64,000 nt of DNA from Branchiostoma floridae (lineage: Eukaryota > Chordata > Leptocardii > Amphioxiformes > Branchiostomatidae), in contig NC_049981.1 of assembly GCF_000003815.2 (NCBI RefSeq), positions 16,041,646 to 16,105,645 of the forward strand, read 5' to 3'. Both the position numbers and the translations under genes were made by a program. The notes below the pieces were generated by a model, which was given only the letters and a program-made list of their open reading frames with translations, did not search any database and had not been told where the DNA came from. Of the stretch, positions 5,282 to 47,700 are shown piece after piece; position 1 is the first letter of the stretch, and every line of letters begins with the position of its first letter.

Positions 5282-8200
5282 TTATACTGCTTGGGAGTGA
5301 TTTGTGTGATTGTTGGCAACTTCCAGAGGTTTTCTGGCAACAAAATAAACACAGTCATATTCATATTGCAGCATGGACTTAGTGTTCTGTATGTACATTG
5401 TAGGCTTTTTGGTGTCTTCTTTCTGTAAGGTGATAAAAGAAATCTAAAATTATTAATGAATGAATGAATGAAGACCTTTATTGTACATACATACCCACTG
5501 GGTTCAGTACAGGTCACAACAAACGACACATACATCAGAAGGTATGCATGTGCACACACACACAGACACATATGCACACACATGTAGTCAGGCAAATGAT
5601 CTATGCACACACACACACACATGCTCACACACCCACACACCCACACCCACATGCACACACACACATAACAACAAACACAGAGACATATGCACGTGCACAC
5701 ATATCCCAACACACACACACACACACATACACATACACACATAAACACACTCATAGTCATGCACACAAGAATTCTTCAAGATCTTCTTTGAAATCACATC
5801 AAAATGGGATCAGTATGACTTCAACACTTCCACATAATCAACTCACCAGTATTTCGAAGCCAAACTCCAGAATCACGCTCCTGAGGTCTTCATAACTCAA
5901 CTCTATGGAAGCTTCGTTCACCATATCAGCAAAATGGTACAACAACGGACCTACAGAACAACAACAATTAAAAACAAGTCAACATAATATGTCTATCAAC
6001 CAATATCCACATTTTCTTTTCATAACTTCTATGATAACCAAAATTAATGTACTGTATTTTCTAGAAAAAGTTCCTCAATTATAAAAAATTCAGGACAACT
6101 AAACATAGGTCCCATATTGCACTACTGTTAACAGATGACAACTACTGAAGAAGACAAATTGACGTGTACATGTCAAGGGTAGAGATTACAGTCTGACTGT
6201 GTCAGGACAGCTCCTGATCAGAGCCTGTAAATTGTTCTGCACATTTGGATATTCACTTAAAAGACAGACCTTTTCAACTTTGATTCATGTCACTTTAGAT
6301 AAATGAATTAACCTTATTTGAAAGTCAAGGGTTTACAAATGGCAGACCAACCTAACACATTCAGCACCTAGCATCATGATTGTGATAAACTGGTTATGCT
6401 GACAAAGACTCCAATCATGATCTTTATTGGTAGGATCAGCAGTTCTGACAGATTATAATCTCTGCCCTTACATCACTTCCTGATATACAAAGTTTAACAT
6501 ACCAAGGTTGATCCAGTAACCTCCAGGCTTGAGGATGTTGTGTATTGTTTCCACATAAGACACAATGTTGTGGGCAGTGTCTATGAAATAACAAGTTGCC
6601 ACGCAGTCCCACGTCTCTGCAAAAGTAACACATTAGATAGAGATTCAGTAAAATCAAAAGTTTTTGCTACATGATTATAAGGTCAGTGTTTTTATTTCAA
6701 CTTTCATAGCCATTTTGTTTTAGTAACAGTCTTAAACAAGGCCATGTCCAGAAAAACCCTGTTCCTCTTTGATCTAGATAAGATGATAAAATGTCTGGGA
6801 TTTAACCAAATTTAAAGAAATATGAAATTAAAAGTTACCCTGTTCCTTGTAGACCTCCAAAAAATCCCCAGCAGTCATTGAGAAGTTGCCGACCTGTGGT
6901 AAACTGTGGGGGTCGATGTCTGGGATGGCGACAGCGCGGGCCTGGTCACGTGATGTCCGGTTGTTGCAGAACTGGTGAATCCATGGATGGAGTGTGATGG
7001 AGTTGATACCTTCACACCTGGGGGGTCAGACAGTTAAGCTGTCTTTTATAGACAATATTTGTGATATAAGGATGACTGACACATGACCTTTGATCTACAA
7101 GTTAGATAGACAATAGAGGATAATTGGCAATTGACTGATGACCTACAAGTTAGTTGAGTTGACTTATATAGACATATAAGACAACTGAGTTTTGACCAAT
7201 TGTCAGACACATTTCACCTGAATCTACTCTATTCAGGAAATTAATCAATCAATCTATCAGTCAATCAACAAATCGATCAATCATCAATGGGCATTAATAC
7301 CTGATTCGTATTGTTGGCTGTAGTAAACCAAGTAGTCACCTATCATTACTTTAACAACTACTGCTACAAATCTTTCATGGCCCTTACGGAACAAAATTTC
7401 AAGTTAACATTAAGCATGTGTATTACAACAAAAATTGAAATGTACTGAAAATAGTTTTCACTTTGACTTTTGATTTTGTAGAAAATGCAGAGTTTGCAGG
7501 CAGAAGACAGACAGGCATCTTGGCAGTGCTTTGAAGTTTGAAGTGGAAAGGTCACTGTGAAAACTGCAAACATTAACCCAGCACGGCAATCTCAACATTT
7601 AAAGAAACACTAATAATAGCAACAAAATCTTGTTATCTCCATTTATCAAGAGAAATAGTCACCACACCACATTTTGACTATAGATGGGAGTACTGACTTG
7701 TTTAGGATGTAGTTGGAGGCAAACAGCATGAAGAAGCTCCACTCGTTTCCCTGACACTGGTAGCCTAACCTGGCCAGCTCCCAGGCTAGCCTGCCTAGTC
7801 CGGCACCAGGCACCAGGATGGACAAGTCCCATGGATCACTGTAAACATATATTTGTATACATGTAAGCCATCTTCTAAACCTGGAAGCCTAACCTGGCCA
7901 GTTCCCAGGCTAGCCTGCCTAGTCCGGCACCAGGCACCAGGATGGACAAGTCCCATGGATCACTGTAAACAGTCATAGATCTGTTATCAGAATGGGACTC
8001 TCAAATAATACACAATTATCAAAATGGGCAAGCACTATGAACCGTCCACAAAAAAATGCATCAGTTTTAAAAAAAACAATGTAACACAGCTACAAATCCA
8101 GGATAAAGTTGAAAAAATGAATGAGTGAAAGTTGAACTAAAGGACTGTACCACTGCTCTGCAGGGAACCTCTGCTGTATCTCCTCTATGATTGGTTTATA

Positions 8201-11200
8201 ACAGGCGTCCCTCTCCACCTTCCCCTCCGCGCTCCAATCACGCACAAACTGCTTCAGTGTGGTCTTCACCTTGTCCATGTCAAACTCCCGGGGAAACGGG
8301 AGGGCGCTTTCTGACAACATGACGTCTGCATTGTCTGAGTACACATCTCCCTGAAAACAGTAGAAACACACAAGGTTGAAAAACAGATTGGATATACAGT
8401 GTAAATGTATTTAAGTTTGTTGTGGTTTTCTGTTGCAGTTTTCTCAGTGAGGCCACTGTGGTAATGCTTGTTCTGCATGTCTTCTGCCTGCCTACCCAAT
8501 TGTTTCAACAGCAAACACTCAATTTTTCTCACTACTACAAAATCAAAGTGTTGCAAACTTAAATGCATTGATAGTAAAAAGCACACTGCCAGCTTTTATC
8601 TTAACCTACATGTACTAGTCTACAATGTGCAAAGACATTTGTTCTTGGTGCATATGGCACCTGGCTACAAAATCAAACAAAAACTCTACCGATTTTTCTG
8701 ATAACCTTATTCAATTTCAAAATTGTAAAAAAATGTACATTTTTAGACTTTGTTTACAGAAACTCAACACATACAAAGGCCTGTTCTGGCTGTTCATCAA
8801 TATGCATGTATGGCCGACTTTCAAAACATGTCCATAAAGTTTTACAGGAACATGAATATTGATTAGTACCAGGTATTGTAATTATGAATCTAACGGTAAT
8901 GTCTGATAGTCATGTTGAGTTAACATATCAATCAATTTTCAATTTTTAATGGACTGCTGATGCATGGCAGCTACAGACACCACTCTCCAGGATGTTCTGT
9001 TTTTGGCACGGCCCCAGGGCAGATACCACAGTTACTGCTCACCAGGATTTTATAAGGAAGGATTTTATAAAACTGTCTTAGTGACTGAGAGTTCCTGCAC
9101 TGCAAGCGCTACAGGTGCAGGTTTTTGTAGCTCGTTCTTTGGGCATCCCCCGATGGTGCAGAGTTTAAGAGAAATTTATTTCAAATGGTTCATTCTAAGG
9201 TATCCTGAGGGACAAAATTATTGTCAGAGAGGTCAGCTACTAGTACTGAGGCTAAATTTGTGCTACCAACATCCCTGGTCAATCAGAATTTTATGATGGC
9301 AGAGGACTTAATCTGTAAGGGCATTCATTTTCAGCTGCAGGGCATCTTGCTTAAAGTGTTGCCTGCAACTTCTTATCATTTTTAGAACAGCACATCCAAA
9401 AGATTCATGGACACATGCCTGACTAAAAACCTGCTGCTGACCATAGGAGACTATATTTAAATACACTAATACATGTCTTGATGAAAGTACAATGTATTAA
9501 TCCAAATTTCAATCTTAAAAACGAAGAAAAAAGGAGCCAGGTTGGACAGATCAAACTGCTAGAATGGCTGAAAGTTCTATTTCAAAATTATATAATAATA
9601 AAAACACAGCCTTTACTCCAATATCCATCCACAATGCCAGTGTGAGTACCAGACCACACAACTCAGATCTGTTCTTATGCCCCTAAAAACTTAATTGAAG
9701 TGAATACATTTTTACCAAACTGGTTAAAACTAGACTCTACATGTACTTGTCCATATTAACAAAAATATTTTCAACTTTCAAGAAAAGAAAGATTTCCCCC
9801 AATTTTGAGCCCTCCACTGCACGAAGTAACTGTGATGTCATCCCTCCAGTCTCTCAGTGTGTCAATGACCTCCCACTTCTTCTGAAACGTCCTCTAGGGC
9901 ACTTCACTTGCCAGCTGGCCCATAAATATCCTCTACACAGTCAGCTGGAGTTTTACTGGCTGGTATTTGAATTAACATTTTTGTGTGGAATTTTACAGGA
10001 TGACTGTACATTCTTGTGTGGTTACACATCATGGACAAGTGATACCATAAAAACTAAAAGTAGCATTTTTACAAACAAACATTTAACGATGGCTTTGTAA
10101 TGGTGACCTTTGACAAAGAACACCTGTCTTACCAAACCTTCCACTGTGGTGCAAACATGATAAGACTAGTCAGTGTGTAGTTGAATAGAATAGTAAAAGT
10201 CTAATGTTACAAACTCTTAAACAGTGACATCTATTAAAAGGGAAATATAGCACATTTGCAAACTAAGACTGTCTAAGTGCATATAAGAATTGTATGTATT
10301 TATCTTGCTCTTTAAACAAAGGATATTCCACTTACGCTCTCACTCACCACCTCTGCATAATATATAATTATCACCTGGCTAAACAACAGTCAAACCTGTG
10401 CTAGTGACCTCTGCATAATGACCACCTGATATACAGTAAACCTTTACTAGAGACCAACTGTACATAAGAACGACCTGACTATTGATATATAGTCAAACCT
10501 GTACTCATAACCACCTCTCAATGGATAAGGACCACTAACTTTTAAGCCATTATTATAAGGACAAACCTATACTTCTGTACTAATGACCATTCACACGAGA
10601 GCACGAATGAGCCGGAATGCCGTCCGAATGAATTTTTTTTCTATTCGTGGCAATTCCTCGCAATTCGTACTGTATTCTAAACATTCTTACTGCATTCGAG
10701 ATATTCGTCCCCGTTCTTTTGGCTGGCTCGAAAGTTTTTGACATGTTAAAAACTGTCAAGGTGCATTTGAAGTGGAGAAATATCGAATGGCATTCGTAGC
10801 AGATTATTAGTGTATTCTAACTATTCTGACTGCAGTCTGACCGCATTCTGCGGCATTCTAACATTATTCGAAACATTCTTATCTCATTCGATGGAGAACC
10901 GAAACGGCAAGCCACCTCGAATCCTGCCAGAATGTGGCCGAAAGAATATTTTGAATGCCATAAGAATGTCTAGAATGCACTACGAATTGACAGGAATAGA
11001 CAAGAATTTTCATTCTGACGGCATTCCGGCTCATTCCTTCTCGTGTGAAGGGGATTTAAAGCCCATTTGGAATTCCCACCCGAATGTGACACAAAGTTTG
11101 CAAATACTTCATTCCGGCTGGTTCGGATTGATTCCTGCTAATTCGATTTCCGTGTGAAGGCCCTATAAGAGAGAGAGAGAGTCATAATGTATGGACAAAC

Positions 11201-13004
11201 CTTACTACTACTAATTACCACCTCTACATAAGGACCACCTGGCCAATGATATCAGTCAAACCTGTACTACTAGTAGTAATACCAGTGGTCACCTCTAACT
11301 GTTACATAAGGACCAACTGGCCATTTATGTACAGTTATACCTGTACTACTAGTGACCACCTCTGCATAAGCACCACCTTGCCATTGACATACAGTCAAAC
11401 CTGTACTAGTGATCATCTCTACATATATACCTGGCCAAAATAACCACATTTTATTGGTCCCTCAACATACTTTCCCCATTGACCAAAGCATATACTATTT
11501 ACTGGTATATTGACACCCTGTCAACTGGGAAAATTTCTTTAAATCCTTTGACTGCTGCTGCTACTTCTGGAATAAACAGATTTGCATATAAGATAATGCT
11601 TCTTACATTTCCTGTGTAATCTTTGTTCTCAAACATGTTCTCTGTCATCTTGATGATGTTGAGCAGAAAGTCGTAGTTCTGGTCCACACATGCTCTGAGC
11701 TCTCCCAGGTGAGCCAGGTGATTGGGCAGCAGCTTCTGTTGGTACAGGGGCAGCTGGCGAAAACATTTCTCCGCTTTGTCAAGGCGCTGCATGGAGTGTG
11801 TTCTGAAAGAAATGGTACATAATGTGAAGGGTAAATGTATGTTTTTTCATTTTTTTCATGACATATACATAAAAAGCTTTGTTAATCATTCTGCAGCTAG
11901 CTAGTGTCCAGGTGCGGTCATTATGTTGAGGTAGACACTTGTTCCGGTATGACTGTATATAAGTGGCCAGGTGGTGCTTATGCTTATAAATACTAGTTGC
12001 TTTACAGGTTTTACTTTATATAAAATGGTACTAGTAGGTGGTCCTTATGTAGACATATAGAGATTTGTTAAATTGTTTTGCAACTTGCTTTTTCAAGTAG
12101 CTCACTGCAATGCACATTTGCTATGCCTTGCTTTTTTAGCCAAGCATACCAGGTCACCCCATGCCTACTCTTCTTCATGTTTTGAGTTCTGTTGTGTGGC
12201 TGACTGCAGGGACTATCAATTTTTGTCAGAAATGGCAAATGTAATTTCCACATGTTATCGGATCAACCTGGGATCGACCCCTGCCCACAGATCCACAGAA
12301 TGGATCCATATGGTTAAGTAGCAGGACTGCTTACAATTTATGCAGAGGGGAATTCATCTAAAAGTTTTTTTTTTCTTGATTAGTTGGATTATCCTTCTTG
12401 TGGCCATGTGGCCCCCAATGTTCTGAACATGTCTATGCTATACATGTACATGTCCTCTAAATGGAGTCTAGTATTTGCTACCCACACAAATTACTGGTTA
12501 AGGCCCATATACAGATTGTATATTTAAAGCATCTAACTCTACATCTAGGAGTTGTGCATATCTTGGAAGCTTCCAGATGATTACATAATCGCAGTATGTA
12601 ACAACACGTACAGAAGGAAAGGCGATAACACGACTTGGACATGCAGAAAAAAACAATCAAAGCAACACAGTTGCTAAAGACGTCACAGAAAATATAGACA
12701 GCTCAGTGAACTGTGCAAAGCTCACTACGTGGACACTTGTGCCAAAATCCGGGCGTAGTCCCAACGCCCCCTCCCCAATACAACTCATACACAGAGCTAT
12801 AAATAATCACAACATTGCAAAGTAACGAGACCTCTTCTGATAGAGAAAAGTTTTAATAGTTATTAAGAGATACCTGTAGTGTCGGAAGGCGCTGATGACT
12901 CGGAAGAAATGCTGCTGTTCAAGGCGTTCTTCCTCGTTTTGTGTCCGGGTTTCTTTGCCATGTTTCTTCTTTTTTCCACCCGTCGCCATGTTGGACGCTG
13001 CCAT
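5282..13004 (-). CDS. CARNMT1: Carnosine N-methyltransferase (8 exons, 401 aa)
   Basis: This SAM-dependent enzyme of the N2227-like/UPF0586 family methylates carnosine to anserine. Coding exons, in order of transcription, are 13004-12874, 11802-11607, 8350-8151, 7838-7698, 7017-6839, 6616-6503, 5950-5847 and 5422-5282. All have GT-AG borders and matching phases, and total 1206 bp including TAA. The start ATG is at 13004, giving a short Lys-rich leader. Family landmarks are [18 protein letters not shown] (exon 3), the SAM motif [13 protein letters not shown] (residues 185-196), [13 protein letters not shown] (exon 4), NFSMTAGDF (exon 5), FIDTAHN and [12 protein letters not shown] (exon 6), and GPLLYHF/IELSYED (exon 7). 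The length is close to the ~409 aa of the human protein. The exon 3/4 junction gives Cys where relatives tend to have Trp. Intron 4 side sequence contains a partial duplicate of exon 4 (7881-7970). Confidence 0.93.
5455..5762 (-). repeat. Retroposon-like tail plus (CA)n microsatellite in CARNMT1 intron 7
   Basis: At 5455-5530 the minus strand reads an AATAAAGGTCTTCATTCATT-type end, like the 3' tail of a retroposon with a short tandem tail. From about 5553 to 5755 an impure CA/TG repeat follows. The long His/Thr-rich and Cys/Val-rich open frames here are products of this microsatellite. Confidence 0.65.
7698..7838 (-). CDS. CARNMT1: CARNMT1 exon 4, SAM-binding exon
   Basis: This exon encodes the glycine-rich SAM motif I ([19 protein letters not shown]) followed by [20 protein letters not shown]. 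The acceptor is tttacag/TGATCC and the donor is AACAA/gtcagt. The exon enters in phase 2 from exon 3 and leaves in phase 2. The start half has a near-identical copy 124 bp upstream in gene orientation, described separately. Confidence 0.9.
7881..7970 (-). pseudogene. Partial tandem duplicate of CARNMT1 exon 4
   Basis: This copy repeats 7757-7846 at an offset of exactly 124 bp, with only a few differences. It includes the splice acceptor and the codons for [20 protein letters not shown], then diverges after RLGFQ, where CCAG/GTTTAG could act as a donor. If spliced in place of exon 4 it would lack the second half of that exon. It is most simply a decaying partial exon duplication, though its conserved acceptor could compete with that of exon 4. 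Confidence 0.8.
8351..10375. other. CARNMT1 intron 2, first part
   Basis: No independent gene is supported inside this part of the 3.3 kb intron. Short open frames (for example around 8964-9296 and 9741-10100, plus strand) show no domain or conserved motif that I recognise. Confidence 0.5.
10376..11450. repeat. Degenerate minisatellite interrupted by a short transposon
   Basis: A loose ~60-75 bp unit recurs: acagtcaaacctgtactagt, then gaccacctctgcataagga, then ccacctggccattgatata. Copies lie at 10376-10586 and again at 11180-11450. An inverted relic is visible near 11915-12055. The two blocks are separated by the element at 10587-11164, which evidently landed inside a once continuous array. 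Confidence 0.75.
10587..11164. mobile_element. Short non-autonomous element with inverted arms
   Basis: The left arm begins ttcacacgagagcacgaatg and continues gagccggaatgccgtc. The inverse, gacggcattccggctc followed by attccttctcgtgtgaa, lies at about 11019-11048. A second, outer end reads tttccgtgtgaaggcc near 11147-11162. The interior is full of diverged attcg/cgaat motifs. No protein is encoded. The exact ends and target duplication are not certain. Confidence 0.6.
11803..12873. other. CARNMT1 intron 1
   Basis: Apart from the minisatellite relic near 11915-12055, nothing recognisable is present. Confidence 0.55.
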
Positions 13005-23617: not shown

Positions 23618-26600
23618 ATGATTGACTTAAATGTCACCACCGTCCTCGCTGTGGTCTTTATCGTTCTGGTGGATGCCTGGGCGGTGTGGTACTATTTCCG
23701 TCGGCGAGGGACGCCGCCCGGGCCCGTGGCCTTCCCCGTGATCGGTAGCCTGGTATCTCTCGGCGACACGCCGCACGAGACGTTCAGCGCGATGGGGAGG
23801 ACATACGGGAACATCTGTAGTTTCTGGCTCGGTACACGACTGGTTGTTGTGTTGAATGGGTACGAGACCATGCGAGAGGCGTTCTTAGACAAGGCTGGCT
23901 GTTTTTCGCACAGACCGAGCTATTTTCTACCGAAGTTGGCCTCGGGAGGAATAAGCGGTGGTAAGTAAGCTTTTTTTTTTTCATCTTGTATTAGTACATG
24001 GAGTGAACTTAGCTTTGCCTCCTATGCAGTTTTTCATTCACCTATTTTATGTCCACAAATTGATAGCAGCACGACAGCTTATGCATTTCGTCGCCAAATG
24101 CCGTAGGACGTTATTTAAGTTTCCTTGTCAGTTATGAATAGCTTTGACGAACTGGAAAATAAACAATTGTTGCACAGAAATGAAAAGGGGGATATGTACA
24201 AATAGATGCTTATTTGTATTTCTGAATTATGAACTGAATAATGTACGAGTCAAATGTTGTTTTTTCCTCATATTGTTTTGTCTGCTTCGCTTGGAAACTG
24301 AACAAATATTTGCTTATGAAAACTTATGCACACTACCTTTGTGACGTCACTCGAGGTCTACGACTTCGAACACTGCCTTGCATGACTTAGATTTCATAAA
24401 AACACTGTGTCCTTTTCAATAGAGGACAAATATCTTTAGTTGTGATCGTATCATCGTCAACATTCAATGTCTAAAGGCTCTTGCTCTACACTCACAACAC
24501 ACACATGAAAATACTATCTAGAACAAGTAATTCACAGACTATATGTAACGTTATAGGGCAATGATGTGGCTGAAAGTTGGTAATTGGTTGCAGCTATAGG
24601 AGACAGCAAGTTCAACATCCAACAATATTTCAAACCCTAAGAAATCACGAGTGACTGTTGTGACTAGCTGTGCTGCTGTATAAACATGACTTTGACCGCT
24701 GAGAAACTCATAAAAACGTTAGCATCTATTCTGTACTCACTTTGCAATCGACATTCAGGACACGATGATAGTGTCATGTAAGCTATTCTAGTTGATAAAT
24801 AGCATGCCTGACGAATGAATCCAAAGTCTTTAATAGATAAAGCAGTGACTGCCTTTTCCCCACATAGTAACCCGAGCGCCCAGACTTACGATCTGATACT
24901 GGATCTGATACAATGACAACGTTGATACTGTCTAGTGACCTAAACCGACCCCGAGAAAAATACCTCCCCATATTGGGATAGCAGGAAGCCCAGCCGTCCA
25001 CATTAAGACTGTACCATTTCTAAAACGTTTAGAGTGACTGGTTGAATGAACTATCTTTCATTATAGATTTTACTGCAATCATCATGCAAATCAACATATA
25101 TGGCTTTATTTGCATGCACAAATGCTACGTTAACGTTTTCGTAGACGAGCAGAACATGAAAATAGTAGCTCCCTCTACTTTTAATGTGGTACAGTCCAAT
25201 CGCCAATATGTCGTCTGTCAACAGTAATTAGAGATCCCCAGACCAAAATGAAGCTTCCGGAATTAGATGTTATCTTCAAATGGTCTATTTGATTCCAGTG
25301 ATCCCTTGCAAATTAGGTTAAAAAGTTTCACCCCCATCTTTCAGGCGACTTTTTGCTTGGTTCAAATGTTCCGGTTATCTTTTGTTTCGAAACGTTTAGT
25401 GATTAAGACATGCTGTCAGGTCTGAGTTGTTAAGCAAACAAAGAAAAGAGAAACTAGACATATTTCAATGAAATGGGACCAGAAAACGCAAACATGAAAT
25501 TGAATGCTGCCTTTATAACATCCAATTTCGCTCACGAATGCCATTGTTTTGGCCATACTGAAATATTATAACGATTTCAGCTGTTTTTGTAAGAAATTCT
25601 GCTTGATAATTGCAAGATAACAAACAAAAATGCTGTCATTTGAAGACTCTGGGGTCTCAGTCGGTATCCATGCGGAAGTACGGGTCAGTAAAGATCATAA
25701 AGTCACGTAAATGGTTCTACTCGATAGTCAGAGTTCATCAGCTGATACGTCATATATCACTGACAAATGTTAGCCATCCTTAGCCCTGCAAGAATATCCG
25801 AAGCCAAAACAGGGACCGTTCATTTTACTCATGCGTCGTGATTACGTTGAAGTGATTGCGAAACGTCGGTACATGGTACATTTGTGCAGTGCATTTTGTC
25901 CGTCGAATTTGCAAATATTGAGTCAGCTAACATCGTTTCGTGTGAAGCAAATCTACTTGAAGCATCTAAGATTTCATAGTTGATGGCAAGTAAACTGTTC
26001 AGTGACACACGTTGGAGAAAACTATTTCAGTTTCAATTTCAGTTCATTTATTTATCCAGGATTTGCATGCCACATACTGGGGATTCCCGTGGCATAGGGG
26101 AGGGGGGGGGGGGGTACTTAGTAACATATCATTACAAGAAATGATCATAAAAAACAAATTAAAACAAGAGTTCGTAGACCTCAGGCCTGCATGAAATGTA
26201 TTGGGTTTCTGTAGACCTATTGTGTATTTTTGCCTTTTTGTCTGTGGTACGTGGTTGGAAAAATGAGCTTTTTACCGTGTTGGTTGTGCACCATGCAAAA
26301 GTCTGACTCTGAAATTCCATTTTCTGAATTTGTAAGTTTGGACATGGATGAACATTACTTATTTTGGATTTCTTAAGTATGTAACCAACCACAGTACTTT
26401 GAAGTTGTTGAGACGCTACCTTTTTTGTCTCAGATGGCCCATGCACATGTAGTTACTCTGTCACATGATATAAATATCTTCCTATTTCAATGTACTGACC
26501 TAATGCAGCTGCTAAGTCTCCTTGGTTTGTGTTCTTCCAATGATATTCATTAAAGATTTATTTCTGGGGTGTTATTCACTTGACATCGGAATGTTACTTG

Positions 26601-29600
26601 CATAATTTGACCAATGATACTTTTATCTGTAGTTCCATAGACATTAGACAATATGAATAGTGGTAGCCCCCATGCAGCAGCAACAGTTAGTCCCCAGGGT
26701 GGTATGATATTTTCATTCAATCCATCCAACCCAAACCTAAATCTCCTGTAGTATCTAAGCCAAATTTAACAGCATAATTTACTATGAAAAATGTCCTTGT
26801 CAATCCCATTTATAGATGGCAAGCTGCTGGCAATGGAAGCTTTGAAAAGTTCAGAAGCTGTTGTAGTCAGAGCAAACACCCAGCAAACATCCCCGCAAAC
26901 CAATGAGCAGTTGCTTAGAAGGGGAATTTCATCATATATTTGCCGCGACAAAATGCAACAAACGATACTGAATTTAAAACAGAACAAAGCTAAGCCTCCA
27001 CCACTTAACCCTGCCTGTACCATAGATTAAGCAGGCCCAAAAACCAAGCGAATATGACTAGCCCAAAACAGCAAATTACCTGTATACAGTATGGAAATGG
27101 CATTACCAAAGAAACAAAAAGAAACACAGGACAAATCATACACATACCTTTCTCTTATGCCCACTCTCTATACAGTTCTCCTCCACATTAGAAAATTGCA
27201 TCTTCTTCTGTTTAAGTTCAAGTTCAACCATGATTGCCAACAGGGTAAAGGAACTTGTACCAGAACTTTAAACTCAGTACTATACAGCTCTAGAAACACC
27301 ACAAAGAGTAATAAGCAAACTCCAATTATACCTGACCAACAGATATATAATCTGGCACACTCCCGTCATCTGGCAAACTGTCAGTGCCACTAAGTAACCT
27401 GATACATTGAAGGTAGCCCAGGCCAGATGATGGTTCTACACCCAACCATAATCTGTTTTTAAAATCAAGCAGATATTGGGAGGATGCCCCAACCACACTA
27501 AAACAGGGTCAACCTATACAGTATCAAGTTCAAGCACTAGGAGGCTCAAAATCAAACCTGACCACCAGGACACCACAAACAACTCACGTACCAAATGGCA
27601 ACACAATGGCACCTTGCGTTCCGGAGATACAGCGCACGCCCCGTGCCCGCACAAAAGGTAACCTAAAATGTCAAGTTCAAGCACCAAGGGCGCCAAAATC
27701 AAAATTGAGCATTATTCAGCCACCGCCGACACATGTGCCAAATATCATCGCGCCAGCACCAGCCGTTCAGAAGATATAACTCCGGAAACACCCCTCCCGG
27801 ACACAAAATTCGACCTGCCGGGTCAAGTTCAAACGCGACAAGGCCCAAAGTCAATCCTAGGCAACAGGCAACAACCCCCCACCCATGCACCAAAAATCGT
27901 CGCAATCGCGCGTATCGTTCCGGACACACAGCGCCAAAAGTGCCCCCAAAACACCAAAAATGCCACCTGCAATGTCAAGTTCAAACGCCAGGAGGCCCAA
28001 AATCAAACCTGAGTGTTAGGCTACCACCCCCAACCCACGTACCAAAAATCGTCGTGCTCGCACCATCCGTTCACGAGATACAGCGCCCTACATCCCCGGC
28101 TACCGAAAAGTTCCCACCAGCATCAAAACCATACCTGCATACATGCAGGTAATAAATTAGCATTCACACAAAACTATTTCAAAGATTGTTCATGTTGTTT
28201 TCATTGTATCTATTACTTTTAGTGGCTAAAACAATTAGCCATAGCAGGCCTTATTACATCTTTAGACCAAATGAACAGATCAACTGAATTGTATCAAACA
28301 ATTACACCATATCTAGAATACTATAAGATGCTTAATAAATATAAATTTTTGGGGGTTAATTTTGCGGTCGGTAGAAAATGGAGCGGTTTCGATGGCTTTA
28401 GGCGAGCAGAAAATATTCGCATTAACGAGGTTACCTCGAAAACCCATATGTGCAGTCAAAATCTCGGAAAGCATTTCAACTTTTATTATGAAAAAGCGTC
28501 GCGTTCCGCCAGAGCTCTATTCGTCTTTGATAGGCCTTGTGAAACTGCAATTTCATCAAGTATGATGGTATATGTACTGTTTTGTATAAAGAAAAAAATC
28601 CTTCTGTGAATCTTATTTCATTTCGTATATTTCAGATTCCACACCACGGCCCTCCCATTGGAGAGCTCAGCAACGGCTCAGCTCCTACATCGTTCGTAGT
28701 TTCACCCTCGGTCAGACCGTCAGCTTGGAAAGAAAAATCACTGTCGAAATACAAGGCCTGTTCGATCATGTAACCAGCATGCAAAGCGCGCCCTTTGACC
28801 CAGAAAGACTTCTCCTCAAGAGCGTTGCCAACACGATTTGCTCCGTCATCTTTGACGTCACGTTTCCTTACGATCATCAGGAATTCTGCGGCTTTCTAGA
28901 ACTTTTCAAGAGGAACACCGACGCAGCCTCGAAGATTCCTCTCGGCAACTACTTTCCCTTTCTAAGGCACCTTCCAATCGGTGGGCATAAGGAGTGTTTT
29001 GAGAATAGCGAAGTGGTGCAGGTGTTTATTCTATTCTATTCTATTTCTATTGCATTTCATCTTATTTTATTTACATATTATACTTATTGAGAATCGGGCA
29101 AAAAGTGCGTATTGAACCGCTCTGCTTTTGATAAAAATACAATCCAACATACATATAGGTTCAAGATGGATAAGGGAAATTTAAACATGAACAAGACAGG
29201 AAGGTGTATGACTGATCACGAAAATCTCTCCGTATAGTCAGCAGAAGAGTGAACAATATGTAAATACTTATGGTTGTGAAAGTGTGGGGTTTTGGAAGTG
29301 TGCCAAGCTTTAATAAGTTACAATGTTAAGGAGATATGGTAACAGTGAACGTCTTTGATTGGTAGAAAGTTTCCAGTATAGAGGCCTAGTGCTTAGTTGT
29401 TTTACTATCGTTACACAACAAGATTATCTATAAACAATCAAGACATGCAATCATCCGAAGTTTCGGTGACCGAGTGAGTGCTGATATTGCGCTTAGCACC
29501 GCATTTTTAACAGCGACACCTAGCTCTATTAGCTGACAATGCGCTTAGCACCACATTCTTAACAGCGACACCTAGCTACATTGTGGAATAGTACCGGTAA

Positions 29601-32600
29601 AAAAATGCCCCGAGGAAGGTGACAGACGGTCACCGAATCTTCGGTTGTGATCTTATGTATTGATTGTTTATAAAGGATCTTGTTATCCAGTGACTTACCA
29701 ACCTGATGACCTTATTGACGGAACCTGCAGGTATTCATGAAGAAGACGGTGGCTGAGCACAGAGAAAAGTTCGACCCGGAGAAACTGAGGGACTTTACGG
29801 ACGTCTATCTGTCAAAAGTTCGAGATGCAAATGATGGGATCAAGTTTACCGATGATTTACTCATGGAAGCGATTCGGTATTTGGCTAATGTTTTTTTTTT
29901 CTGTATAAGATGGTACACATTTCTCTCTCTGCTTAGAGGTTAGCTGTGAAAGGAGGTGAACTAGACCATTAACGGTTTTGCAGTGCTTGCCAAAGGGCTA
30001 TAGAAATGGACTTGAACTTTTCTCTTTGAACAAATATGTTTAATGCCTTATATTGTTACGAAGCAGAAATGGCTGAAGTTTATTAATGAATAGAATTTGA
30101 ATAGACCTTTTCACGAGTCCCATTGCATGCTCGTAGACGCAGGGCACTTTGGGTAGCTAAATGAGCAAATGTCATCACCATGACAACATAGACCGGACCG
30201 GACACAAGCCAAGTTGTCATGGTTATTGTACTGTCCAAAGTGCTCTACTTCTGCCAGCACGCGATGCGGTCTTTGTCTATTGGTTTATTACATCACCCCA
30301 AATTTACGCTATACTCTCTTTACCAGGGACATATTCGTGGCAGGTACGAGTACCGCCGCCGCCGCTCTACAGTGGGCTATCCTCTACATGACGGTGTATC
30401 CGGAAGTTCAGGAAAAGGTTCGCGTACATTTATTTTGAAGTTGCACGTTTTACAGCCTAGTAGACCACTTTATAGTACGTTGCACTTGCATGCGGCCAAC
30501 TGCTCCATAACGTCATAAGAATCGAACGGGAAACAAAAAAAGGAATTTTCCTTTGAGTCAATAGTGTAAACATAATTCAAATTCAAACTTTCTTTCATTG
30601 CAAAGAATCCGCTTCCTCTTTCCTCGGGTACATTGACCAATTGACCTCTAGAATGTGACCTTTCGGAAACATCATTTGGGACGAAGTCTGTATCGTCCAC
30701 CGTCCCTGTCTCTAAGCATCTTCGTTTAATATTCAAAACTTCGCATGTACAGTGGGATGTTGACACTTTTAGGGTAAATATGTCGGAGGTGAAAGCCCCT
30801 GAGACATAAATATGTCCGTCATGTAAAGTTATCAAGTATGCTGGTGACAGGAACTATTTATAAGTTTATATCGGAGCCTTCAACTTTGACATAATACCCA
30901 CGGTGCATCTCGCTGCGTATGTGCAGTTAGAACCATGAAAATGCTTATAACACGAGCAGTTAAACGAATTATCTGTAGCATTGTCTTCCCATGTAACCTA
31001 TTTAGTGAAGATAGTGTTTTGTTTTATCATTCAGGTACAGGATGAGATTGACCGTGTGGTCGGCAAGGACCGCCTCCCCTCTTTGATTGACAGGTCTAAC
31101 CTTCCATATACGGAAGCCACCATGATGGAAGTGAGCCGCCTGCGGCTAACCGGGCCCTTGTCTCTCACTCACGTCACCCAACAGGACACGGAGCTCTCCG
31201 GATTTAACATTCCAAAGGTAGGGGATACGTGAAAAAGTACCTACATTCTGAAGCATCATTGTATTGAAAGGCGGAACATACATGTACTGTTGTTTAAACG
31301 AATTTATAAACTCTTAAACCCTTAAACTGCCAGAGTTTCAGCCCAACAAAATGCTCTCAATGTCAGGCTTTGACCGCTGAAAAGAAACCCTCGAACATGG
31401 CTGACCCCCTAACTTCGGGTTTCGCGCCACACGCTTTTTCTTCCGGTAAGGCCATGTTGATTTGATTATATGGATGACATCCTCTGGGAACTCCAAAACT
31501 GATGCGAGCGAGCGAATAAAAAAAAAGTTTAGCAAAAAAAAAAAAAGTTGCCTCCAGTATGAAATCAAAGTGGCCAGGAAGGTTGAACATAGGACTAAAC
31601 ACACATAGTATGGTATACCAACAGTTAGGTGTAGGGACCAGTACATTATACAGGTGCAAGACATTTTTTTTCTTCTTGGACCAATCCGAAAAAAACAGAC
31701 CTGGAAAAAAATCAGAGGAACAGGTTTCGCCAATTACAAAATGGACACACTATGTCGGCAGGCATTTGGGGTCTTACCAGGGGCCAACAAGAGGAAGTCA
31801 AGTAGAGTTTATAGTCAATTGTACCAAGTTTTTACCTTATTATATGGAGATGGGATTTTTGAATGCCAGTGGGAGCCCAATAATCCACCAGAAAGATTCC
31901 TTTGTAGCAAAACTGACCAATTACCATTGTTTTGAGTATTGCCAATTCTCAAGTTTCGACATATCCGGACCTGAAATGATTCTCTGGACCTGAACGGGAC
32001 CTGAATTTTCTGTACTGGTACCTCCCCCTACCAACAGTAGATTTTTTTCTTTCTGTCCTTTCACATCTTATTCTTTGACTTTAGATTTATTTTGGCATTC
32101 CTTGTTATTCAAGAAGATCAAGATTAGACTATGATTAGTTATCTGTTTTCTGATACTTTTTTTCAATCTAGGGAATATTTGTGCTCATTTTACAGCTGCT
32201 TTGCACAATTTGTTGTGTGGTCGAAAACTTTTTTTTTTTTTTGGAAACGGCCGAAAATTGGTGCGAGCGCGGATGTCATCCATATAATCAAATCAACATG
32301 GCCTTAAATCAACATGGCCTAAGGCCATGTTGATTTGATTATATGGATGACATCCTCCGGGAACTCCAAAATTGATGCGAGCGAGCGAATAAAAAAAAGT
32401 TTGGCCCAAAAAAAAAGTTGGCTTCAGTATGTAATCAAAGTGGCCAGGAAGGTTGAACATAGGACTACAAACACATAGTATGGTATACCAACAGTTAGAT
32501 GTTGCGACCAGTACATCATACGGGTGCAAAACATTTTTTTTCTTCTTGGACCAATCTGAAATAAACAGACCTGAAAAAAAATCAGACGAACGGGGTTTGC

Positions 32601-35416
32601 CAATTGCAAAATGGACACACTATGTCGGCGGGTGTTTGGGGTCTTACCGGGCCAAAAAGACAACAAAAGCGAAGTGAGTAGAGGTTATAGTCAAGTTTCT
32701 ACAGTCAAGTTTCTACAGGCAAAGGTACAGAGACAGTTAGCCTTTATTACATGAAGATGGGATTTTAAAATGCCAGTGGTAGTCCAATGATCCTTTGTAG
32801 AGATTCCTTTGTAGCAAAATTGACCAATTACCATTGTTTTGAGTATTATCAGTTCTCAAGTTTCCACAGACAATCAGGTCCAGGTTCACGTCCACCTGGA
32901 AATGATCCTCTGGACCTGAACGGGACCTATCCTGAATTTACTGGTACATGTACAAACCCCTACCAAAAATCCTTTTTTTCTTTCTTTCTGTCCTTTCACA
33001 TCTTATTCTTTGACTTTTGAGATTTATTTTGGCATTCTATGGCATCAGTTATCGATTTTCTGATACTTTTTTTTCAATCTACGGAATATTTCTGTTCATT
33101 TTACAGCTGCTTTTCACAATTTACTGTGTGGTCCAAAACTTTTTTTTTTTTGGAAATGGCCGAAAATTGGTGCGAGCGCGGATGTCATCCATATAATCAA
33201 ATCAACATGGCCTAATGTCCAACTCTCGATGAGTCGGCAATAATTGACATAACGTTATGTTACTTCAGGGAAACCCTATCCCGGTTATAACCGGGCGCGG
33301 CACACAGGGCATATATCTGTATGCCGGCTATATCAGGGCTTGGCAGTTTCAGGGTTTATACATACGTAATAAGTACACCTCAACAGCCTTCAGTGTTTTA
33401 AAAGCTAGCCTACTGTTGTTTTCTATTCACAATTCGTATATTGTATGATTCTGATAACGTCTTGGGAATATGTATACAGGTGATATATTTCGAGTTTCTT
33501 GTTTAGTTGTACTTCATTAGTTATACCAGTCAGATTCTAATTGACATTACATGTGCTCATTGATCACCACAGGGAACAGTTATCATTCCCAACGTGTGCT
33601 CGGTCAGCACCAACCCGGAAGTATGGAAGAACCCGCTGGAGTTCGACCCGGCTGGTTTCCTGGACAGCGACGGGCGCCTGATGAAGGAAGGGGTCTTCTT
33701 ACCGTTCTCTTCTGGTAATATTTCATTCTAACATATCGTGAACAAGATCTTTTCTTGTACGTGTTGTTAAATCATAGCTAATCTATTATGAATTTCTGTA
33801 TTGATTAAAATTAAAGTATGTCCATTGATTACCTTCTGTTTCTCGTCGGTGAATATGACTATTAGTATTATATAATGGAGAATATGTAAACGTGAAAGTA
33901 CAAACACACAGCAGTCTAAAAACAATTCCGCCTCGCGTGAAGTAGCTTCCCATTGACCCCGTGACCTGGCATGTCTGATACTTTCTGTCACATCTGTGTG
34001 GCTAAATGACCACGGACACACAAGAACATACCAAACAGGCACACGGGAAAAAGTATTTGCACACGGAAGCAAACAATGGTTGTATTGAAATAAACCCACT
34101 TCACTTAAAGTGGCGGCGGCACCATGGGGGCAGTGGGGGCGGCCGCCCCCACAAAAAATAGGTCGTGGGGGCGTCGCCCCCACGATAGAATAAGCTGCAA
34201 CACTCAAAATCAAGCTGAAACCCTTGTGTATATTTTCACTAATGGAAATTCCAGCAAATCTCGCTAGTCTACTGGCAAAATTTGGCCCTAAAATGCAGGA
34301 AATGACGTTTCAGAGGGTCCAGATTTCAAAATTTCAAAGGACCTCCCTTGTGAGGATTCGCGCCTTCGGCACTGGACATGGTGGGAAAATGCTACCGGAG
34401 CGTCGTCCCCCACGACCTTTTTCTAGTAGAAAGTTCATTATCAAACTTTGTTTACAAGCAAAATGTTCCCCTCAAATGCAGGAAATGGCATTCAAAGTGT
34501 CCTGATTTAAATATTTCTCCAAAACTCCCTTGCGGCGGCTTGCGTCTTCGGGGTTCCCGACGACGTAGTGCAAAATATGTTGGTGCGTGGGTCGTCGCCC
34601 TCAAAAATCGTTTTCTCTACTAGAAGTTTAATTAATATAATATAAATTCAGCTTAGTCTGTCTGCAAAATTTGTCCCTCAAAATACAGGAAATGGCGCTT
34701 CAGAGGGTCTAGATTTCAAAAACTTCCAGAACCTACCTTGCAACGGCTCGTACCTTCGCCGCTCGAGATGGTGAAAATATGTTGGGGGTGTCGCCCTCAA
34801 TAACTAAAGCTAAAACTATGTGTATTTTTGATAGAAATGTCACTGAAGTTAGCTTAGTCTGGCAGCAAAATTTGCCCCTCAAAATACAGGAAATAGCGTT
34901 TCAGAGGGTTTAGATTTGAAATTTTTCCGGGGTGGCATGCCCCCGGACCCCCCTAGAAGGGTCGCGCCGGAGGCGCGACGCCTCGGGCCTTCGGCACTCG
35001 AGTGATATGAGAAATTTTCGCCCCCACAACTAAAAAATTGTGCCGCATATTATTTATTATTATTTGATTTAATCTGACTTTTATTTCGACGAATGTTCCC
35101 AGAAATCTATACAGCTTGCCGTGTCAGATCACCATATTGGCTACCTATATACAAGTCAACTTGCTTGCTATGAAAGAATTACATTCGAATCGTTTACGTA
35201 ATCTATGATGCCCACTTTACTTGTATTTCAGGCTGGTGTGCGTCCAACCCCGGCGAGCAGCTGGCGCGCATGCTGATGTTCCTGTACTTCTCCTGCCTCA
35301 TGCAGCAGTTCCGCTTCCAGAAGCCAGATGGCGCTCCTCCGCCCAGTTTGAGACCCAAAGCAGGCCTGAATCTCGTCCCCTGCCCTTATGAAATAGTTGC
35401 TATCCCACGAACTTAG
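23618..35416 (+). CDS. Cytochrome P450-like protein with degenerate heme site (7 exons, 491 aa)
   Basis: Exons are 23618-23960, 28636-29021, 29731-29876, 30327-30417, 31035-31217, 33573-33714 and 35232-35416. All have GT-AG borders and perfect phase, total 1476 bp including TAG, which is a normal P450 length. The fold markers are of clan 2: an N-terminal anchor and TPPGPVAFPVIGSL hinge, FSAMGRTYGNICSFWLG, DPERLLLKSVANTICSVIF, LQWAILYMTVYPEVQEK, DRSNLPYTEATMMEVSRLR (ExxR: E354, R357), GTVIIPNVCSVSTNPEVW and a GEQLARM L-helix. The signature residues are altered. The C-helix WxxxR is W123..Q127, the I-helix is AGTSTA (297-302) with no acid, PERF is PAGF (409-412), and the heme loop FSSGWCASNPGE (428-439) has Asn, not Cys, at the ligand position before GE. 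Ordinary monooxygenase activity is unlikely. It could be a non-catalytic P450 or, less likely, a very young pseudogene. Confidence 0.92.
23961..27522. other. P450-like intron 1, first part
   Basis: No gene is supported. It includes a G-run at about 26100-26114. Short open frames (26159-26446, 26766-27023) carry no known motif. Confidence 0.45.
27523..28130. repeat. Four tandem units of ~150 bp in intron 1
   Basis: Units start at tcaagttcaa near 27523, 27671, 27823 and 27975 (spacing 148, 152, 152). Each contains aggaggcccaaaatcaaacc-like and cgttcnggagatacagcgc-like blocks and a run of CACC-rich sequence. The units differ considerably, so the array is old. It is GC-richer than its surroundings and produces long spurious frames on both strands. 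Confidence 0.8.
28131..28635. other. P450-like intron 1, end
   Basis: A 67-112 codon plus-strand frame at 28271-28609 has no recognisable domain. The acceptor tatttcag at 28628-28635 leads into exon 2. Confidence 0.45.
29416..29693. mobile_element. Foldback element in P450-like intron 2
   Basis: The left arm has aacaagattatctataaaca and ccgaagtttcggtgacc. The right arm has ggtcaccgaatcttcggttg and attgtttataaaggatcttgtt. The centre carries two copies of ttaacagcgacacctagct. It belongs to the same family as 22307-22566. Confidence 0.75.
30327..30417 (+). CDS. P450-like exon 4, altered I-helix
   Basis: It encodes DIFVAGTSTAAAALQWAILY and MTVYPEVQEK. The usual (A/G)Gx(D/E)T(T/S) motif reads A-G-T-S-T-A: the acidic residue of the acid-alcohol pair is Ser300 and the last position is Ala302. 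Thr301 is kept. The borders are taccag/GGAC and AAG/gttcgc, phase 2 in and phase 0 out. Confidence 0.9.
30470..30835 (-). other. Unidentified antisense open frame in P450-like intron 4
   Basis: A 121-codon minus-strand frame without an ATG at its head (it opens at TTG). It contains DGHIYVSGAFTSDIFTLKVS, which faintly recalls one blade of a kelch repeat, and IDSKENSFFCFPFDSYDVME. No splice partners or start were found. It may be a decayed gene fragment or chance. Confidence 0.2.
31450..32303. mobile_element. Element with perfect 33-bp inverted ends, copy 1
   Basis: The left end reads GGCCATGTTGATTTGATTAT then ATGGATGACATCC. The right end is the exact inverse. TAA precedes it (31447-31449). 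Subterminal gcgagcgagcgaat and ggtgcgagcgcgg blocks lie inside. The interior shares blocks with the element at 41030-41460 (cctttgtagcaaaactgacc; tggacctgaacgggacctga). No transposase is visible. The length is 854 bp. Confidence 0.85.
32304..32319. repeat. Extra half-end between tandem elements
   Basis: ttaaatcaacatggcc repeats the last 14 bases of copy 1 right after it, followed by TAA and copy 2. It looks like a footprint or a recombination scar of an earlier copy. Confidence 0.7.
32323..33212. mobile_element. Element with perfect 33-bp inverted ends, copy 2 (TAA flanks)
   Basis: The same 33-bp ends as copy 1, in the same orientation, 890 bp, flanked by TAA on both sides (32320-32322 and 33213-33215). 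A 3-bp TAA duplication points to a PIF/Harbinger-like non-autonomous element. The interior is ~90% like copy 1 by eye, with indels. Confidence 0.85.
34110..35045. mobile_element. Non-autonomous element with internal ~190-bp repeats
   Basis: It starts near tggcggcggcaccatggggg with a G/C palindrome (gtgggggcggccgcccccac) and ends gcccccacaac, then attgtgccgc. Inside, a block with gcaggaaatg..gtttcagagggtc recurs near 34291, 34475, 34681 and 34882. It looks like a hAT-type derivative by its ends, but this is not certain. It lies in P450-like intron 6. Confidence 0.6.
35232..35416 (+). CDS. P450-like exon 7, heme-loop exon without the ligand cysteine
   Basis: Joined to TCTTCTG of exon 6 it reads FSSGWCASNPGEQLARMLMF, then a normal P450 C-terminus ending EIVAIPRT and TAG. 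Counting back from the conserved GE, the heme-ligand position is Asn436 and the FxxGxR arginine position is Ala434. The only nearby cysteine (C433) is three residues too early. The loop is also one residue longer than the FxxGxRxCxG consensus. The acceptor tatttcag is strong, and no alternative acceptor restoring the motif is visible. Confidence 0.9.
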
Positions 35417-44700: not shown

Positions 44701-47700
44701 TTTGGGTCGTCGATGGTAAGGGTGACGTTATCATGTACCGTAATGACAATAAAGTATTGCAAAGCATCCTTTGCCCTTGACCATGAGAAAAGCACACGAA
44801 TTTCCTTGACGGTGGAGACATGCCCACTGAGCTTTTCGGCTTCGCGTTTTTTTCTTCTCTGCTAGACAAGCTCATGATGCCATCACACTCACCACACCCA
44901 ACCAGTTATCCCTATCTTCGCCCCGGCCAGCTTTATTTATAAGCTATCTTGTTTCTTATGTGGCGGTAATATGGCATCTGGTGGAATCGGTAAGAGTTGA
45001 TGGTAAATATTTCATAAAGATATTCAGTTTGGTATTCTCGTTACATTTGTAATAAATAAATATGTCTTCAACCTCAAACGCTAGCAAAAAAAAGGTAGAG
45101 GGAATGGCCCCTGCAACAATATGTAAACGTGCATGAATGCACGTGCCTAGAAGTTAGACCACTGTGTAAAATGGTAGGAAAATACTAATGTGAATATTCT
45201 ATAATGATTTCTTTATTTGTGTATATTTCTATAGTGATACATGTGTAGGTAAATAGCTTACAATGTTCTGTATTGTAACGTTATGATTTGTGAATAAAAT
45301 TAAGGGGAAAAACACCTTCCGCCACAAAGAAATACTTTCTAATATTACATTTCATGGGATATTTTGCGTGACAAGAATTAAAGAAAGGTATTCGTTAAAG
45401 AAATATTCTAATGATGCCCAAACACGGCAGACATTTGTCCGAGCAAAGTGTCGCATAGTATTGTGGGTTGACTCACGGTTGGCGTCAATTTGCATGTCGG
45501 CGTGGATCGCGACCATCGTGAGCAGCCACCACTGCGACCAGTCCATGGCCATGATGAACCCTCCGTAGATGACGTTGATCAGCCAGAAGATCAGACCTTT
45601 GCCGAGGTTGTTTTTCTCCGCCTTACACATGCGGAAACCGGCTGGAAGGAACGGACAGATGGTTTACCGTACGAAGGATTAATATTGACCCAACAAAAAT
45701 TACAGTGACTTTCGTATTGTCACAAAAGAGAAGTACCTGCAAAAACTCAACACTCTACCTATTAAACAATAAAGGCTAATATACGCTGATCTCTAAGATC
45801 TCGATACCATAAGGTGGGCTGAACGTATCAATGTATCTTTTCTAACAACAGAGCAATATTTTATGTACTAGTTTTGCATTATGTCAAATATGGCAATACC
45901 CTTACCGGGATGGATGTATCTGTAGTAGTCTCTGTAATCTAGAGGCAGGACGGTTTCCTTCCACATATCATTCCGCTTCTTGTCCATGGCTTTAAACTCT
46001 TCCGTAATGTACAAGTTGTCAAACCTGTCCTTGGTCATGTACTTCCTCCGGTAGCTAACGGCCCTGGGTAAAACAGTAATGGCAAGCATTAAAGGGGCAT
46101 CCCACTCCAGAAAAATAGATAATAATGTATCAATGAACCAGCCTATCGTTTGTGGAATTCCGCTTCTGGTGAATTACGCGATGTATGTTTTGTAAAATAA
46201 CATGGCACTCACAACCCATCTTAACCATGCATGCCCTATACGTGTAGATACTTCCTTTATCGTGAATATGTCGGGAATAAATGAGGAGCGATATAAGCAC
46301 GCTAAGAAGGTACTCATGTGATATCGAAGAACTACTACTACATAGCAAGATGAGTTTCTTTAGCGCTATCTAAATTAGTTTTGTAATCAAACTGAGTAAG
46401 TCCAAATGCCTTCGCCACTAAAAAACTGGTCAGAAGACCAGTTATTGTCTGTCAATATGTACTAGTAATGTACAGGTGATCTACTTGAGTAGATGATTAG
46501 CTTAAGGTGAGAGGTTAGATCATAAGAAGCAGCGTTGCGCAGCGTAAGTGTGCTGGGCCCATAACCCAGAGGTCGATGGATCGAAACCACCCGCTGCTAG
46601 ATTTTTTTCCAAACTTTCTTTTCTTTGAGCAGATTTCGTAGGTACATTTTTTAATTTGTTTATTATTTTCCGATGTTGATTTCTTATTGTTTGTGAAGAC
46701 GTGGATCAAAACCACAAGCTTGATATATCTGTTAATCTTTCTTCTACAAAATAGATTCAATCAGTGCATTCTTATCATCTGATGTTCATTTGTTATTGTT
46801 TATGAAGAGTTTATTGGAAACTCTGTTCCAGTACAGCAGCGTGGCGCAGCGGAAGCGTGCTGGGCCCATAACCCAGAGGTCGGTGGATCGAAACCACCCG
46901 CTGCTAAGATCGTTTTGTTCAGTCAATGAGATATTCTTTTGCATTTTATGCAGAACACTTATGCACATAAATCATATCTATTTTCAAAATTAGCTAGACA
47001 TATTTACAACTAACCTATGATTTTATCTGTATATAATTCCCAACTTACTTGATGTACAAGACGAGAAAGGTGATGACCATGACATTGCTTACAGACCGGA
47101 TCAGTGTCCTGAATGTCTCTGTTCTTCCCTTGATCTCTTGAAGGATTTCTTCCTGTTGATTCAACACTTATGATTACTGCCTAGCCAGAGGCCAAATACT
47201 CAATAAAAAACAAGGTGGTGTAATATATTCAACAATTGTCTTGCCTATTCCATTTTATATTGGACAAAGCATTACCGGCAAACATCCCCAATCAACTGAG
47301 TTGTCTGTGGCGAGGCCAGCAGAACTCGAGCTGACAGAGTGCGCCTGTCATCTCAGCCCGGCTAGCACAGTCGGCAGAGCATGGGAATCTAAATCCCAAG
47401 TGTCGTAGGTTCCAGCCCAACGTTGGGCGATACACTTTTGTCTTACAATAAAATATTGGATTTTTGTGTGTGTGGTACACTTTAGCAAAGAGCAATCCAC
47501 TTGATATTTCACAACACAAAATAAATCAACAACTATAGAGTTAGACGTTTTAGATAGTACTCATTTGTTTTTGCTTGTGGCGACGTTTTAGGACGAAAGG
47601 TAGAAGATACGATGTGAAACGTCTAGCTCTTTTGAGATTTAATCCATTTGCTTTAATTCATCTTGTACTAAATAACATTCTACCTGGAATTAAAAAAAAA

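Follow-up and report, generated by a model that had tools for sequence, protein, structure and literature searches.

A cytochrome P450-like gene of amphioxus with an open frame and no heme-ligating cysteine: a possible retained pseudoenzyme

Introduction

Does a cytochrome P450 gene that has kept its reading frame but not its heme-ligating Cys still make a useful protein, or is it a gene that is dying? The Cys ligand is a hallmark for recognizing P450s, and Arg residues of the C-helix and of the heme loop hold the heme propionates. The question is raised by a gene of the lancelet Branchiostoma floridae, for which an original prediction proposed an intact frame, several signature motifs changed together and a role other than monooxygenation. 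The passages of the annelid CYPome study cited here report the Cys in all its sequences, call exceptions “very few” with reference to Sezutsu 2013, and warn that a missing motif is likely to reflect an incorrect gene model, a pseudogene or a non-CYP (PMC4229089). Similarly, a stick-insect CYP survey, as far as the cited portion goes, dropped motif-less sequences (PMC9603955). No Cys-less amphioxus P450 was found among the titles and abstract openings listed in our literature search, which most subscription papers lay outside. Here we analyze the window, a stretch of 64,000 nucleotides (G000:C3:16041646-16105645), together with the genome from which it comes (513,431,437 bases in 431 contigs).

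Results

An intact gene of the P450 superfamily

Spliced together, the exons of the gene (Table 1) total 1476 nt, i.e., 491 amino acids and a stop codon, and all six introns have GT-AG boundaries. The protein matched the Pfam p450 family (PF00067) with 329.3 bits (E 4.8e-98, cut-off 22.8) over positions 1-460 of the 462-position profile. The seven-exon, stop-free frame of 491 residues claimed in the original prediction was thus confirmed, and its residue numbering was also right (WRAQQ 123, AGTSTA 297, EVSR 354, DPAGF 408, FSSGWCASN 428). Both the full-length Pfam match and the ExxR motif (E354-V-S-R357), which had been reported as kept and was read in exon 5, indicate membership of the superfamily by descent. 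Among solved P450s, the top match was CYP2R1 (286.8 bits), followed by CYP2D6, with identities of 36% and 37%, respectively. The last intron, a phase 1 intron after PFSxG, has the same position and phase as in the paralogs. On the basis of the best solved match and this intron position, the gene is assigned to the CYP2 clan.

None of the usual signs of a pseudogene (stop codon, frameshift or lost splice signal) was found in the gene, and neither the gene nor its intron 6 contains N. GC content at third codon positions (GC3) was 0.65 in the exons versus an intron GC of 0.40. Intron 5 contains a direct tandem duplication of ~0.9 kb (31447-33213), with matched pieces of the two units 82-99% identical. 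In the neighboring carnosine N-methyltransferase-like (CARNMT1-like) gene, a part of 25 residues is present twice in tandem (7884-7961 and 7697-7837; span 7697-7961, minus strand), a repeat that may stem from duplication of an exon or from the assembly.

Table 1. Features of the window and of the adjoining downstream region. Positions are those of the window unless a locus is given.
Feature	Position	Strand	Remarks
CARNMT1-like gene	5327-12944	-	Pfam CARME; upstream of the P450 gene
P450 gene, seven exons	23618-35416	+	spliced ORF reading
Exon 1	23618..23960	+	start, anchor-like hydrophobic stretch (by eye), RRR, PPGP hinge; tblastn
Exon 2	28636..29021	+	C-helix W123 at 28659-28661; Gln127 (CAA) for Arg at 28671-28673
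Exon 3	29731..29876	+	
Exon 4	30327..30417	+	I-helix AGTSTA; Ser300 (acid position) at 30349-30351; Thr301 at 30352-30354
Exon 5	31035..31217	+	ExxR: E354 at 31128-31130, R357 at 31137-31139
Exon 6	33573..33714	+	meander PAGF at 33648-33659 (Gly411; Arg in displayed paralogs); 3' end FSSG
Intron 6	33715..35231	+	no N; FxxGxRxCxG absent in all frames
Exon 7	35232..35416	+	heme loop W432 C433 A434 S435 N436 P437 G438 E439; ARM-L445; stop
Ser435 (TCC) and Asn436 (AAC) codons	35243..35248	+	heme-ligating Cys codon here in paralogs
DC-STAMP-domain gene exons	45355-46173	-	downstream of the P450 gene
Broken partial P450 copy	L048:6440-6817, L048:9089-9239, L049:986-5798 (window scale 70440-79798)		several N runs in this stretch

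Conserved body and lost residues

Seven solved P450s (2R1, 2D6, 2C9, 2B4, 2E1, 1A2 and 17A1) served as the alignment reference and gave 49 invariant columns. The amphioxus protein kept 43 of these, or 42 if a displaced Cys433 is not counted, and the well-conserved P450 body that had been predicted was therefore borne out. The six lost columns were L89F, G120P, R127Q, the heme-loop Arg, E445L and L454M. In a leave-one-out control, each of the seven solved enzymes lost 0 to 13 columns, so the overall wear of the amphioxus protein is ordinary. Cys433 sits two to three residues before the ligand position; MAFFT set it opposite the ligand Cys at the cost of two gaps. We did not accept this placement of Cys433 as the ligand, which arises only in the doubly gapped alignment.

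With regard to the functional motifs, ExxR, Trp123 of the C-helix, Thr301 of the I-helix and His368 were kept; the C-helix Arg, the I-helix acid, the meander Arg, the heme-loop Arg and Cys, and the L-helix Glu were lost. The C-helix motif WxxxR of heme-thiolate enzymes had been described as changed; this holds for its Arg, replaced by Gln127, but not for its Trp. Eight displayed paralogs have Arg (seven) or Lys (L001) at this position, and none has Gln. In the I-helix motif (A/G)Gx(D/E)T, the proposed loss of the acid-Thr pair was half correct: the acid is replaced by Ser300, but the Thr is present. One CYP2D6 chain (2f9q, AGMVTT) likewise has no acid, versus AGMETT in chain 6csb. Of the claimed change from PERF to PAGF, the Arg to Gly replacement is real, but Ala is ordinary at its position (L007 has PARF and CYP2B4 has PGHF). 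Both the meander Arg and the I-helix acid were kept in all nine paralog loci displayed. The L-helix ARME became ARML, and a few paralogs (L020, L100 and L124) are also without this Glu; some of the altered residues, then, vary in other P450s too.

Losses were not significantly enriched at 11 heme-contact columns named from general knowledge (2/11 versus 4/38 other columns, P 0.61), nor when the Cys was counted as lost (3/11 versus 4/38, P 0.18). Therefore, the case for targeted loss rests on which residues were lost, chiefly the ligand, and not on their count.

The heme loop

The Cys of FxxGxRxCxG is absent: the loop reads FSSGWCASNPGE, in which Ser435 or Asn436 occupies the ligand position. 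It is one residue longer than normal and in frame (net +3 nt). All displayed last exons of paralogs, except that of the intronless L001, start at one phase, G|xR-x-C-x-G-E. The amphioxus exon 7 starts with GC TGG TGT GCG TCC AAC CCC GGC GAG, and that of paralog L057 with GC CGA CGT GTG TGT CCC GGC GAG. By parsimony, the simplest reading relative to L057 would be that Arg-Arg became Trp-Cys, Cys became Ser435 and Asn436 was inserted, followed by the common Pro-Gly-Glu. Anchoring the alignment on the left, which needs the fewest changes, puts Ser435 at the ligand position, and anchoring on the right puts Asn436 there; neither gives Cys. Thus, the absence of the Cys stands, but naming Asn436 as its replacement requires right anchoring. 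A double frameshift in the loop (-4/+7), whose other frame reads Leu-Val-Cys-Val, was set aside on the comparison with paralogs, since three single-base changes from the inferred ancestor and one inserted codon would account for the loop without any shift of frame. In two cases, a change in the loop may be read as C-to-T at CpG, typical of relaxed sites. In any case, with the ligand Cys and the Arg residues of the C-helix and heme loop absent, no ordinary heme-thiolate P450 is encoded, in line with the original prediction.

Rarity among P450 genes of the genome

The exon-by-exon search, in which 92 of 1138 candidates were scored, gave at least 118 P450 matches, showing that this genome is P450-rich. 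From the 150 matches listed we took those covering the last exon, down to E 5.4e-7, and read 80 last-exon starts as 78-base pieces, some of them from places near-identical to one another. This set excluded exon 7 of the window and its copy, the intronless C19 gene (Cys was seen in L001), matches that started in exon 6 and merely overran it, and lower-ranked matches. Cys was found at a fixed position in 68 of the 80, and inspection by eye located it one or two residues away in 11 of the other 12 (e.g., GRRACLGE), i.e., in 79 of 80 altogether. The remaining last exon (L078, G000:C18:2205993-2206070) lies against an N run and has TRVPGE in frame; its Cys is not readable.

Among the best-E-value matches listed, relatives of at least ~180 residues were 33-43% identical to the protein, and single short exons up to 59%. 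At the DNA level, exon 2 matched one place in the genome, i.e., itself, and exon 7 had two copies and one diverged paralog. The low identity of its relatives and the lack of a second exon 2 suggest that, apart from the partial copy, the gene is an old, solitary lineage. No relatives of the protein were found in viral contigs.

A partial copy and the search for another last exon

Approximately 38 kb downstream of the gene lies a broken partial copy. It contains exon 4 and the sequence on either side of it, exon 7, and two stretches of the 3' flank; exons 5-6 were not seen in this region. Exon 4 of the copy begins with a 10-bp insertion and shows no changes over 87 aligned coding bases. The two 3' flank copies are 97.8 and 97.4% identical to the flank of the gene (2.2-2.6% diverged). 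The copy of exon 7, whose first codon is that of Ser435, retains both Ser-Asn-Pro-Gly-Glu and ARML, so that a local sequencing error is unlikely for the Ser-Asn-Pro half of the loop and this change predates the copy. The Trp-Cys-Ala half is absent from the copy and hence uncorroborated. An assembly error in exon 7, which the original prediction had raised as a concern, is countered by the copy for one half of the loop only.

Exon 7 and its copy differ at five sites over 50 codons, four silent and one a conservative Asp/Glu change. If these were neutral, at least four of five silent would have a P of 0.011-0.026 (23-29% silent expected; transition weight 1-4), a figure that derives from only five differences and from a copy that is itself broken. 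The copy, which N runs adjoin, could have arisen by a genuine duplication or could be a second haplotype placed wrongly; if it is a haplotype, the exon 7 figures reflect polymorphism and not divergence.

FxxGxRxCxG was not found in any frame of the window, and tblastn for a further P450 exon in it gave only chance-level matches. In the 20 kb past the window, tblastn found the partial copy alone, and DNA matches of ≥88% to the exons were confined to this copy in the 50 kb past the window. Among the matches listed, the next P450 match downstream on the contig is ~208 kb from the end of the window. Exons could lie hidden in two 100-N gaps of the window itself and in seven N runs, of 67 to 502 bases each, within the 50 kb that follow; outside these gaps, no alternative exon 7 that would restore the motif was found in the stretches covered, in agreement with the original prediction.

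Decay versus constraint

In a neutral model that assumed 0.1 indels per substitution, the probability of an intact frame was 0.43, 0.18, 0.033 and 0.0002 at divergences of 0.005, 0.01, 0.02 and 0.05, respectively. Losing six of the 49 invariant columns would take a neutral divergence of ~0.05-0.06. Because an intact frame is improbable at such divergence, long neutral decay does not fit and is unlikely. Splice donors looked weak when scored with a matrix drawn up from general knowledge (summed score P 0.027). The mean donor score, 1.7, compares with 2.0 for seven hand-picked junctions of the CARNMT1-like gene in the same window. Decayed splice sites were considered and rejected, as there was no clear sign of them when the donors of this other gene score about equally.

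Discussion

Overall, the evidence leans toward a P450 kept for a job other than oxidation over a young dying gene. We see an even chance that the locus is a real coding gene for an ER-anchored, CYP2-clan P450 kept as a monooxygenase-dead pseudoenzyme. We counted for this interpretation the open frame, GC3, the kept columns, the neutral model, the loop of the copy, its unchanged exon 4 coding bases, the silent changes in exon 7, the splice donors that resemble those of the CARNMT1-like gene, the rarity of Cys-less last exons and the precedent of heme-less homologues. Counted against it were the small number of exon 7 differences, the broken copy, the lack of concentration of losses at heme columns, the CpG changes and the residues that vary elsewhere.

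It is possible, but less probable, that the gene is a young unitary pseudogene or a null allele, i.e., a P450 of the detoxification type in which the heme loop was lost recently and the frame is still unbroken. P450 turnover is fast (the cited part of PMC4076195 counts 58 pseudogenes among 115 human CYP genes), the partial copy on the same contig is broken, the loop lesion leaves the frame intact, and losses are not significantly concentrated around the heme. The neutral model would also allow an intact frame at a divergence of 0.01 and possibly up to ~0.02. However, the losses of conserved residues need more neutral divergence than the intact frame permits, and a young pseudogene would fit only if most changes were tolerated or occurred while the gene still functioned. 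Besides, the Ser-Asn-Pro loop is older than a duplication whose flanks have already diverged, subsequent changes in exon 7 are mostly silent, and none of the 79 other resolved last exons is Cys-less.

The simplest reading of the loop, a Cys to Ser change (TGY to TCC) plus a one-codon insertion, and the presence of Trp123, His368, Thr301 and ExxR raise another scenario, which we consider improbable: a selected chordate CYP2 in which Ser435 would hold the heme and which would work as an NADPH oxidase yielding reactive oxygen, or as a reductive catalyst, but not as a monooxygenase, a natural counterpart of “P411”. Both propionate-holding Arg residues are gone in this protein, the longer loop might make Ser miss the iron, and right anchoring would replace this Ser with Asn436. 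Least probable of all is that the assembly or the base calling is wrong here, or that FxxGxRxCxG is restored by a different last exon that escaped notice. The N runs in and beyond the window and a copy that could be a misplaced haplotype leave some room for it; but the gene and intron 6 are free of N, the copy repeats the codons from Ser435 to Glu and those of ARML, though not the Trp-Cys-Ala half, and the search for further P450 exons found none in the window and, with tblastn over the adjoining 20 kb, none but the partial copy.

If the gene is indeed a retained pseudoenzyme, its protein would be incapable of P450 monooxygenation, which established P450 chemistry does not lead one to expect once the thiolate and the two Arg residues are gone, and heme binding would be weak or nil. 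The N-terminal hydrophobic stretch and the kept core would fit a protein that is folded and located in the ER. By analogy with EryCII and DesVIII, such a protein may be retained as a binder of hydrophobic ligands or as a protein partner, possibly of other P450s or of an ER enzyme. Ligand binding, a partner role and the heme-free chemistry also proposed for the gene are all conjectural. If the gene is under selection, it would represent a chordate case of a CYP2-type P450 turned non-monooxygenase, would hint that pseudoenzymes go unnoticed in animal P450 surveys, and would offer a natural test of how much dismantling of the heme site a surviving fold tolerates. If it is a young pseudogene, the gene is ordinary.

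Among known systems, the gene resembles CYP2R1, CYP2D6 and the CYP2-like paralogs of its own genome in length, the PPGP hinge, the phase 1 intron after PFSxG, ExxR and most core residues; unlike CYP2-clan P450s, it has no Cys ligand, no Arg in the C-helix, heme loop or meander, no L-helix Glu, and a loop longer by one residue. Vertebrate CYP pseudogenes such as CYP2D7P1 (PMC4076195, in the part cited) are also derived from P450s, with no predicted P450 activity and a broken copy beside, but the amphioxus gene differs from pseudogenes of this type in that its frame has neither stop nor frameshift and all its GT-AG signals are in place. Engineered P411 and CYP2B4 C436S have Ser at the ligand position, as in the left-anchored amphioxus reading; in these enzymes the change was engineered into an otherwise working heme site. 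P450 homologues that lack heme and yet have a real role do exist: the cited part of PMC3391682 describes EryCII and DesVIII as bacterial activators of glycosyltransferases, EryCII being a P450 homologue without the heme-ligating Cys. Absence of the Cys ligand is common to these proteins and the amphioxus P450, and they are the nearest precedent for a kept, non-enzymatic role. In EryCII, an extra N-terminal helix binds the glycosyltransferase and the C helix is missing (PMC3391682, same part); judged from its sequence, the amphioxus protein has neither feature and possesses a C-helix and an N-terminal hydrophobic stretch. The amphioxus P450 and the EryCII/DesVIII proteins probably originated independently.
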